Shown here: positions 29,649 to 34,700 of the stretch, in pieces
Layout of the letters: every line of letters starts with the position of its first letter
How positions within the stretch are numbered: the stretch's first letter is position 1
Assembly (NCBI GenBank): GCA_024225195.1
Contig: JAAEMV010000680.1
Span: 1 to 34,700 of the forward strand
Direction of reading: 5' to 3'
Length of the DNA stretch: 34,700 nucleotides
DNA from: Planctomycetaceae bacterium
GTDB taxonomy: Bacteria > Planctomycetota > Planctomycetia > Pirellulales > Pirellulaceae
Made by a program: the position numbers and the translations under genes
The notes under the pieces: model-generated
Databases searched by the model: none
The model's input: the letters and a program-made list of their open reading frames with translations, nothing else
Told to the model about the DNA's origin: nothing

Positions 29649-29972
29649 TTAAAATACATCCGTCAAGAAGTGGTGACCGAAGTGGTAACGTCGAGGTGAC
29701 GGATAGTAGTTGTGCCACTGCTTGTTGTAAACCGGCACTCGCATTTCAGCGGGATAGCGATGGTACAGGCTGTCAGCACTTCGGAAGTACTCATTTCCCC
29801 AGTAGTTCTGTGGGTAAGTAACATACGGGTAGTGATAGAACCGGTCCATGTTACGTGAACCTTGCTGGCCCCAACTGGCACCGTAGGCGGGTTGTTGAGC
29901 TTGTGCGGTTGACTGACCGATTACTGCGAAAGCACATACGCAAATTGCAACGGCGAATAGACGACGGATCAT
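29649..29972 (-). CDS. Small secreted Tyr/His/Pro-rich protein
   Basis: The start is ATG at 29972, placed by a perfect AGGAGG at 29987-29982 with 9-nt spacing; the track start 14 codons upstream has no such signal. The 107-residue product has a signal peptide (MIRRLFAVAICVCAFAVIG, AQA cleavage-like site near residue 24) and a mature chain of about 83 residues very rich in Tyr, His, Pro, Arg and Asn (HYPYVTYPQNYW, PVYNKQWHNYYPSPRRYHFGHHF). No Cys or enzyme motif is in the mature part. Similar short Tyr/His-rich secreted proteins occur in planctomycetes by my recollection, but the function is unknown. Strong translation signals suggest high expression. Confidence 0.85.
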   Translation of the reverse strand: MIRRLFAVAICVCAFAVIGQSTAQAQQPAYGASWGQQGSRNMDRFYHYPYVTYPQNYWGNEYFRSADSLYHRYPAEMRVPVYNKQWHNYYPSPRRYHFGHHFLTDVF

Positions 29973-30368
29973 GGAGTTCTTCCTCCTCAATGGCACTGTC
30001 AACGAACAGTGCAAATGGACGGGTTTTGGCTGACTGAGGTTTTACGGTAAATGTGTTGTCTTGTTGAATCGAAAGCGGCTAGTCGTTCGAATCAAGAATC
30101 TGTTTCCCACGGGGTAAACCGCTTGTGAAACTGATACCAGCTAAAAAAGCTGCATTAACCGTATGTTCGACATTATCAATACATAAATGTCAGCAAGAAA
30201 TGATTAGCCCGTAAAGTTTACCTAGGTTGGTGCTGCCATTTTTGAAAGTCCTCCCTTTGGCGGGGGAATAGACCCTTGCATCCCGGCACTCGCGGTTCAT
30301 CGACTAGCTAAATGTCATGGTGAGAGGCAATCACCAGACTTTTAATCACTTTAGGCACACAAACACAC
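29973..30368. other. Intergenic and leader region of the small secreted protein
   Basis: These 396 bases lie between the RND transporter stop and the small protein start, both minus. They contain the leader hairpin and Shine-Dalgarno described above. I could not identify a promoter with confidence, and no further ORF or RNA gene was seen. Confidence 0.6.
29993..30012 (-). promoter_or_regulatory. 5'-leader hairpin before a strong Shine-Dalgarno
   Basis: On the minus strand GCACTGT and ACAGTGC form a 7-bp stem with a TCGTTG loop. It ends five bases before AGGAGG, which stays unpaired. Such a hairpin could protect the leader from decay without hiding the ribosome site. Confidence 0.5.
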
Positions 30369-32741: not shown

Positions 32742-34700
32742 TTAGTTACCGGTTGGTTTATTTCGAAGGTGTTTGAGCATCAGTCGCCGGATTTCTTCCG
32801 TGGAAAGCTCGCCGTTTCTATCGAGGTCAAGAGTTCGAAACCCATTTTCACGGACGACGCGAGGTAGTTCAGCGCGAGAGATAATTCCATTTTTGTCGGC
32901 ATCATATTTTTTAAGATACTCATCAACGCCGGTTTGAGCTCGACTCGATAACTGCGGCGAATCCCTGCGTTTCTGAGCATTGGCGTCTGCCTGTCGGGTT
33001 CTCGGGATCGCTACAAAGGCGAAGGCAACGGCCATCTCTTCGTCCGTCTGATCGCCCCACATTACGGCTTTTGTAGGGTCAGGATTCGCGGGGTTCGCAC
33101 TGGAATTGTCGAACGTAACTTGGAAATCGAGAGAGTCTATTTCTTGGAGGGGAATCGGGTCTTTGAGTTCGTAGATATGTTGCCAGTTAAAATCGTAATT
33201 GGGTACTTTCAGCACGGTTGGGTCTCGTTTTGTTTCGCCGGATTGTGAGAATTCCGCGTCGAGAGTGAACGACTTGCCACGAAAATGCATGTGTGGCGAA
33301 ATACCGAGAAACTCTCCTACTTTCGGGAGTTGCTTAAACTTTCCAGAAACGTTGGCGTTTGCTTCGCCTGCCTCAATCACAAAACTCTGATCCATGGCAA
33401 TGATGGTCAGAAGCTGTTTTTCGATTTCGGCCTCTTCCCCAAGGACCAAGCCAATTCGCGTAATGTCCTCGGTAGCTTGGCCGTTGGTCGTGTAGTGTTG
33501 TTGGAAAACGAGCGTTGACCCGGCTGGAATTAGTCTACCCTGCCGAGGATCGTAACTGGGCGGTTTTTGTCCCGGCACGTAGGCCGCCAGCCAACCGCCT
33601 AGCCTCATGTCGGCGCCATCGGGAGGCCGGACAAAACAAATCGAGTGATGAACGACGCCGCGATCGCCTGGAATGATTTCAGCTGCGGTGACCCACGTAT
33701 CTTTTTTGAATCCCGGATCAGCCACGAAGTATTGATAATCTATGACTCCGTCGCTCGGGATTTTCAAAGCTTCGGTCGACATATCGACGATCAAGTCGGG
33801 TTCACGAGGAAGTCTCCACTCGCTCCCCGAACCGTAGTCCTTCGCCTTTGGGAGATCTTTAGGATTACCCTCTGGAGATCCAGCGGCAACCCAATCGCGA
33901 ATCATTTGCTTTTCATCGCTCGTCATCCGCCTTTCGTTTTTGAATTCTCCGTGTGCGGGGTCGGCGTGCCACGGTGGCATTCGCTGATCGTCGATCACTT
34001 CCACTATCATGTCTGACCAGCCGACGACCTCTTCGAAGCTCGACAATTCCATTGGGGCGAGTTCACCTTGGCGGTGACACTCCATGCAGTGATTCTGCAG
34101 TATTCGAGAAATTTGGTTTGAAAAATTGACGTTTGATTTCAGATCGATCTTCGTAATTCGTCCGATCAGACAACCGTCTACTTCGGTCTCCGGAACCGAT
34201 ACTTTTCCCTCGGCTAAGCACTCGGAAATCGCGATCGTCAGGTCATCGCGAGTGGGCTTGCGTTTCGCTATGCCTGGCTGATACTGGTCGTCGATTCGAC
34301 CGCGGTAGAGAATCTCCAGATCTTCGTTGACTAAAAAAACTTCGGGAGTTCGTTCGGCTTCGAACTGGTCGGCAACGAGGTTGGCGACGTCTTTCACGAT
34401 TGGAATCGAAACATTGAATCGTTCACGGAACGCCTTGAGATCTTCGATTGAATCCTGCTGGTTACTTGAAACCGCAATGAATTCGACCTTAGGGAATTTT
34501 TCGGCCAGATTGTCTAAGCTGCCGGAATAGAGTTTGGCAAGTGGACACTCCGTTCCGATGAAGCAAACTACCGTCAAATGTGAGCCCAGGCTTCTTTCCA
34601 GAACTACTGAATTTCCGTCTAGATCTTTAAGGCGAAAATCAAGTTCATCGCACTGGACTGCTGACGGAATTGCAAAAGCGGCGAAAAAAACGATCAAAGC
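32742..34700 (-). CDS. Redoxin / c-type haem / PHM-like copper monooxygenase / EF-hand fusion, probably 5'-truncated
   Basis: The track starts at TTG 34697 at the window edge. The frame is open through the edge (codon GCT), and the signal-like segment MIVFFAAFAIPSAVQC is short, so the true start is probably outside. Domains in order (numbering from the track): redoxin/thioredoxin fold about 17-150 with Cys51 in TECPLAK (one Cys, not CxxC); one c-type haem site CMECH at 204-208 with possible Met240 ligand (RMPPWH); a PHM/DBM-type copper domain about 310-565 with His350-His351, His401, His469, His471 and Met555; then two EF-hand loops at 599-610 and 624-635, each with canonical Asp, Asn and Glu positions. 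Predicted as secreted and periplasmic. The RND transporter lies 66 bp downstream. Confidence 0.88.
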   Translation of the reverse strand, partial: ALIVFFAAFAIPSAVQCDELDFRLKDLDGNSVVLERSLGSHLTVVCFIGTECPLAKLYSGSLDNLAEKFPKVEFIAVSSNQQDSIEDLKAFRERFNVSIPIVKDVANLVADQFEAERTPEVFLVNEDLEILYRGRIDDQYQPGIAKRKPTRDDLTIAISECLAEGKVSVPETEVDGCLIGRITKIDLKSNVNFSNQISRILQNHCMECHRQGELAPMELSSFEEVVGWSDMIVEVIDDQRMPPWHADPAHGEFKNERRMTSDEKQMIRDWVAAGSPEGNPKDLPKAKDYGSGSEWRLPREPDLIVDMSTEALKIPSDGVIDYQYFVADPGFKKDTWVTAAEIIPGDRGVVHHSICFVRPPDGADMRLGGWLAAYVPGQKPPSYDPRQGRLIPAGSTLVFQQHYTTNGQATEDITRIGLVLGEEAEIEKQLLTIIAMDQSFVIEAGEANANVSGKFKQLPKVGEFLGISPHMHFRGKSFTLDAEFSQSGETKRDPTVLKVPNYDFNWQHIYELKDPIPLQEIDSLDFQVTFDNSSANPANPDPTKAVMWGDQTDEEMAVAFAFVAIPRTRQADANAQKRRDSPQLSSRAQTGVDEYLKKYDADKNGIISRAELPRVVRENGFRTLDLDRNGELSTEEIRRLMLKHLRNKPTGN

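Follow-up and report, generated by a model that had tools for sequence, protein, structure and literature searches.

The protein encoded at the edge of the window (the whole stretch of 34,700 nucleotides analysed here) is best explained, as a whole, as an exported copper monooxygenase with several cofactors and the PHM/DBM fold, fed by a haem, a reading to which we give a probability of about 0.6. Its copper domain, as shown computationally, belongs to that fold and carries the full ligand sets of both metal sites, CuH (H351, H352 and H402) and CuM (H470, H472 and M556). The domain is invariably coupled to a c-type haem domain, and in most members of the family this pair is preceded by a redoxin; in two relatives, selenocysteine is likely to stand in for one of its cysteines. 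The family is large, common in Planctomycetota and also present in Acidobacteriota.

Layout of the protein

The window comprises one entire contig, and the reading frame is cut at its 5′ end by the end of that contig (Table 1). A relative that is 95% identical, L003, is complete at 659 amino acids and its frame opens with MNAFRYLAFIAFFAAFAIPSAVQC, so that about seven residues of the signal peptide have been lost from the N-terminus of the window protein. Residues are numbered here as in P0001. This is one above the count of an earlier sequence-only reading, which started from the TTG at 34697; with this offset of one, the residue positions given there agree exactly with ours. The layout, from N- to C-terminus, is redoxin, c-type haem domain, PHM/DBM-type copper domain and a pair of EF-hands (residues 600–636). 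The sequence-only reading had proposed this four-part architecture and a secreted location; Pfam, family profiles, ligand register and fold bear out the former, and the latter is supported as well. It had also placed a thioredoxin-like fold at the front, a haem site at CMECH and two EF-hand loops at the rear, all of which stand on the evidence given below.

The EF-hands are the simplest case. Pfam EF-hand_1 recognizes two stretches (1.8e-9, 36.9 bits against a cut-off of 25.4), and both 12-residue loops fit the Ca2+ pattern, with Asp or Asn at positions 1, 3 and 5, Gly at 6 and Glu at 12. A search of PHROGs returned no match for the protein. The copper domain of a relative recorded as ‘Mariniblastus sp.’ (L070) is 81% identical to that of the window. 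The window's own genome holds a second redoxin-haem-copper paralogue (G000:C50:36830-38452; L041, L067), 43% identical, in which no EF-hand was found.

Table 1. Features of the redoxin-haem-copper protein and of the adjacent exporter gene (window coordinates; residues numbered as in P0001).
Feature	Residues	Window position	Strand	Basis or remark
Whole protein ORF		32742..34700	−	652 codons + stop; 5′ end cut by contig end
Redoxin/thioredoxin-like domain	21–180 (approximate)	34161..34640	−	Pfam AhpC-TSA, profiles, Foldseek
Cys52 (TECPL), active-site Cys at start of thioredoxin helix	52	34545..34547	−	65/67 aligned relatives
Cys177 (DGC), second conserved Cys	177	34170..34172	−	70/74 aligned relatives; codon TGA in L152, L153
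c-type haem domain	190–282	33855..34133	−	CxxCH and M241 invariant; weak profile matches
CMECH haem-attachment motif	205–209	34074..34088	−	CxxCH in 141/141
Met241 (RMPPW), probable distal haem ligand	241	33978..33980	−	141/141; ligand role inferred
PHM/DBM-type double jelly-roll copper domain	290–566	33003..33833	−	Profile, Foldseek, conservation
His351-His352 (PHM H107/H108, CuH)	351–352	33645..33650	−	143/143; aligned with PHM and DBH
His402 (PHM H172, CuH)	402	33495..33497	−	143/143; aligned with PHM and DBH
His470-Met-His472 (PHM H242/H244, CuM)	470–472	33285..33293	−	143/143; in register with PHM
Met556 (PHM M314, CuM), in invariant Glu-Met	556	33033..33035	−	143/143
EF-hand loop 1, DADKNGIISRAE	600–611	32868..32903	−	Pfam above cut-off; canonical positions 1, 3, 5, 6, 8, 12
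EF-hand loop 2, DLDRNGELSTEE	625–636	32793..32828	−	Pfam EF-hand above cut-off
MMPL/HAE3-type RND exporter gene, next downstream	768 aa	30369..32675	−	Pfam MMPL 1.8e-25

The copper domain

That the six copper ligands of PHM appear in order had been claimed from the letters of the DNA, together with a check by alignment of whether they are indeed the PHM ligands. Run with a family profile against PHM and DBH, this alignment places them in register: HH, QxH and HxH fall on PHM H107/H108, H172 and H242/H244, while the ‘sdEM’ of PHM meets the Glu-Met of the window protein in a second, low-scoring profile segment. All six are invariant in the 143 non-redundant relatives. The Gln that lies two residues before H402, a feature shared with PHM, is kept in 131 of the 143, and the Glu before M556, shared likewise, in every one. 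The profile of the copper domain finds DBH (4zel) as its best match in the PDB, at 1.2e-8, and PHM at 1.8e-7 to 2e-7; that of the whole protein matches DBH at 3e-9. Structure prediction leads to the same place. The AlphaFold model (52 sequences; pLDDT 90.0, pTM 0.80) retrieves with Foldseek many entries of PHM, with E-values between 1e-12 and 1e-9 (best 2.6e-12, TMt about 0.5–0.64), and DBH at 5e-11, and the double jelly-roll matches that of PHM (1phm, 1sdw, 1opm) at a TMt of about 0.6. It might be argued that these are coincidental matches, and that we have here an ordinary redoxin and cytochrome followed by an unrelated beta domain at the C-terminus. Pfam gives some ground for this: on the single window sequence Cu2_monoox_C (PF03712) stays below its curated cut-off (0.0087, 16 bits against 23), and PF01082 finds no match there, although the best family member reaches 8.6e-7 with PF03712 and 2.1e-4 with PF01082. 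Yet a profile match at 1e-8, a fold match at 1e-12 and ligands both in register and identical in 143 of 143 sequences contradict coincidence, the chance of which we put at next to nil.

Likeness to PHM has its limits, with identity at about 13%. R240, N316 and Y318 of PHM hold the carboxylate of the peptide. In the relatives the corresponding columns are occupied by S/M/T/F, I/V/L and F/Y/W, so that the PHM residues are not conserved and peptide amidation is unlikely. PHM has five disulfides; the copper domain here, with C355 as its only cysteine in the window protein, cannot form them. Finally, PHM lacks the fusion to haem, redoxin and EF-hands. DBH, too, is made of a PHM-like core with an extra front domain, DOMON. 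Here, by contrast, the front domains are a c-type haem and a redoxin, the organisms are bacteria, and there is no catecholamine context.

The haem domain and its pairing with copper

Conservation of the haem domain was counted over the 141 relatives, among 143, that span it, and the CxxCH motif and M241 are present in all. Known profiles see the domain poorly: on the window sequence alone, Pfam Haem_bd (9.5e-5) and Cytochrome_CBB3 (0.036) are below cut-off, and the latter matches 51 of 52 family members with weak E-values. The model of the isolated domain gave no significant Foldseek match. A weak profile match (0.0028) links it, through the haem motif and a C-terminal helix, to the haem domain of hydrazine synthase alpha (5c2v), which is another enzyme, the resemblance being confined to this domain.

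Among the complete copper-domain reading frames retrieved, the copper domain never occurs without the haem domain. The haem-less frames that were examined are all fragments, two lying at a contig edge (L106, L150), one split or frame-broken (L073) and one a disrupted gene (L151), and haem and copper thus form the invariant core of the family, to which redoxin and EF-hands are add-ons. This invariable pairing, across very divergent homologues, is the strongest argument in favour of a transfer of electrons from haem to copper.

The redoxin and a candidate selenocysteine

The first domain is recognized by Pfam AhpC-TSA on the window sequence (1.4e-11, 44.8 bits, above cut-off). Its family profile matches 2cvb, 3u5r and 2ywi in the PDB at about 1e-31, as well as ResA, a protein that serves cytochrome c maturation, and Foldseek, on the redoxin part of the model, finds 2cvb at 2.6e-12 with a TMt of 0.73. 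The closest solved relatives are thus thioredoxin-like proteins from Thermus, Sinorhizobium and Geobacillus (2cvb, 2ywo, 3u5r, 2ywi), which differ in being stand-alone, without fused haem or copper domains. A peroxiredoxin identity was considered and set aside: PxxxTxxC is absent, VCFIGTEC lacking both the Pro and the Thr where the motif requires them, and the closest structures are thioredoxin-like. The domain had been described as a single-Cys redoxin. This has to be corrected: two cysteines, C52 and C177, are nearly invariant, and the latter, which aligns with the C-terminal Gly-Cys of 2cvb and 3u5r, is seemingly selenocysteine in two relatives.

In these two, L152 (genome G304, C42 near 1162-1164) and L153 (genome G044, C70), the codon for C177 is an in-frame TGA. 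They come from different classes and are 45% identical in the C177 region of the redoxin, while 13 close relatives of G304 carry TGC or TGT at this codon. In both, the frame after the TGA runs on into the haem and copper domains with all ligands intact. Both genomes have a tRNA-Sec with anticodon TCA and a SelB above its curated cut-off. A sequencing error or a pseudogene is less likely: both TGA codons fall at the same conserved Cys codon and the frame resumes, the space available would not hold a second signal peptide, the selenocysteine machinery is encoded in both genomes, and among the roughly 100 matches listed internal stops occur in L152 and L153 only. Hairpins whose shape and spacing would suit a SECIS follow both TGA codons. 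They are no more stable than shuffled sequences (z of 0.42 and −0.82) or than the counterparts in Cys-containing relatives, and this evidence is therefore only compatible with a SECIS; fold energy was dropped as a proof. We consider that selenocysteine is likely at the C177 position of L152 and L153, judging from codon, frame and gene content, and this would mark the position as that of a redox-active cysteine.

In the AhpC-TSA (pfam00578) selenoproteins the domain family is the same and selenocysteine likewise stands in place of a redox cysteine; the motifs named in the accessible part of PMC9312934 are UxxC, UxxU and UGC, with different selenocysteine sites defining different subfamilies. 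The site of L152 and L153 differs in being the C-terminal cysteine (PG-U), in a redoxin fused to haem and copper domains, and it is not among the AhpC-TSA motifs in that part of PMC9312934. The two proteins make a candidate new selenoprotein subfamily, a redoxin-haem-copper fusion. As for the window's own genome, it encodes SelB and tRNA-Sec above cut-off (G000:C406:5937-7832 and G000:C21:12284-12379), yet the protein has Cys at 177.

Neighbouring genes

The gene immediately downstream codes for an exporter closest to the HAE3 type (TIGR00921 at 3.1e-45, below its cut-off). In a FastTree of the haem-copper region with 143 rows, the window falls in a supported clade of 40 rows (97). The exporter gene lies directly downstream in 32 of 38 members of this clade, against none of 61 outside it; these counts take in only members with enough downstream sequence (32 with the exporter, 67 without), split by clade on the tree. 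Six members of the window's subfamily therefore have no exporter next door. Clustering of the neighbours found no other gene conserved to the same extent. The pairing suggests a hydrophobic substrate or product.

Two further observations concern the surroundings of the family. At 29652-29975 (minus strand) the window encodes a small protein, rich in Tyr and His, that has a signal-like N-terminus and no Pfam match; 39 of 40 relatives carry one copy of it. Its conservation is unusually strong: it is 99–100% identical in seven congeners, where the neighbouring redoxin-copper protein is only 74–95% identical. A sulfatase-like gene turns up repeatedly beside members of another clade of the family (seven loci, among them L096, L105, L114, L115, L116 and L123).

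Spread and modularity of the family

All 40 nearest genomes match, one of them at up to 23 places when partial and redoxin-only matches are included. Farther afield, the profile of the copper domain finds matches in 122 of 294 sampled genomes of Planctomycetota and in 23 of 119 of Acidobacteriota, where one genome gave as many as 21; one Gemmatimonadetes record also holds the family. The redoxin is fused in 115 of the 143 sequences. Members from Planctomycetota follow the order redoxin-haem-copper, with or without EF-hands. Those from Acidobacteriota, of about 430 amino acids and often in tandem, comprise haem and copper domains alone, which tells us that a fused redoxin is dispensable in some lineages. 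In several planctomycetes the haem-copper gene adjoins a separate redoxin gene, which argues that the parts are functionally tied.

Some Acidobacteriota have a second gene by the haem-copper gene (L117:4884-5567, L119:4824-5540, L133:3004-3690 and L135:4930-5631), made of the same haem domain and a remnant of the CuM-side jelly-roll. Read directly in L117 and L135, it is missing the His-x-His copper ligands. Its product may be a cytochrome partner, or a subunit without a catalytic role.

PHM and DBM are viewed as enzymes of animals or eukaryotes. PHM has been called widespread in eukaryotes (PMC8812541). A search of the freely available literature found no published account of the bacterial family, be it the fusion architecture, the spread in bacteria, the gene pair or the candidate selenocysteine variant; the ‘pHMM’ matches in PMC10036551 have no bearing on it. 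The fold and the copper ligands are, of course, already known, and automatic names in databases may already flag parts of the family.

A possible function

If the protein is a monooxygenase of this kind, electrons would be delivered singly to CuH, by the covalent haem and not by free ascorbate, and the haem would itself be fed by the thiol or selenol of the redoxin or by a cytochrome pool. Oxygen would then be activated at CuM and used to hydroxylate an extracytoplasmic substrate other than a glycine-extended peptide. With C52 and C177 (or selenocysteine) as its working residues, the redoxin would pass reducing equivalents to the haem, or keep the metal sites both loaded and reduced; the EF-hands, by binding Ca2+, would lend the protein stability. 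The neighbouring HAE3-type RND exporter of the window's subfamily may handle a hydrophobic molecule that is the substrate or the product. One may go farther and see here a large bacterial class of self-sufficient haem-copper monooxygenases with an obligatory covalent haem and, in Planctomycetota, a thiol or selenol redoxin as built-in reductase, one subfamily of which would act, together with an RND exporter, on a hydrophobic molecule of the envelope. This extended version we hold to be rather unlikely in all its parts.

Alternatively, the copper-haem core might be a monooxygenase that draws its electrons from the cytochrome pool of the periplasm, with the redoxin as a built-in maturation or repair domain, in charge of loading Cu(I), reducing thiols so that haem can be attached, or clearing peroxide, and not as a donor. 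The redoxin is absent in Acidobacteriota and a separate gene elsewhere, when haem and copper are never split, and its profile also matches ResA; all this would be expected of a helper. But fusion in 115 of 143 sequences and a likely selenocysteine at C177 suggest steady turnover, not a one-off maturation, and we lean against the helper role without dismissing it. More radically, the PHM-like domain might be no oxygenase at all and use its two sites as a copper or oxygen sensor, a copper store or a module that handles peroxide. The loss of the substrate contacts R240, N316 and Y318 does remove the direct link to peptide hydroxylation. The weak Met ligand of CuM defines the catalytic copper, however, and it is invariant with the five other ligands across very divergent homologues; copy numbers that reach about 20 in some genomes also fit diversification of substrates better than sensing. 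A function other than oxygenation is thus improbable, and the haem-fed monooxygenase remains the explanation that we prefer.

The passage of electrons from CuH to CuM, and the source of these electrons, are long-discussed questions. A dicopper core that comes in every case with a covalent haem attached would offer a natural, spectroscopically visible electron donor with which to test them. The candidate selenocysteine singles out C177 as the first residue of the redoxin to mutate. More generally, the family marks an uncharacterized group of predicted secreted oxygenases in Planctomycetota and Acidobacteriota.
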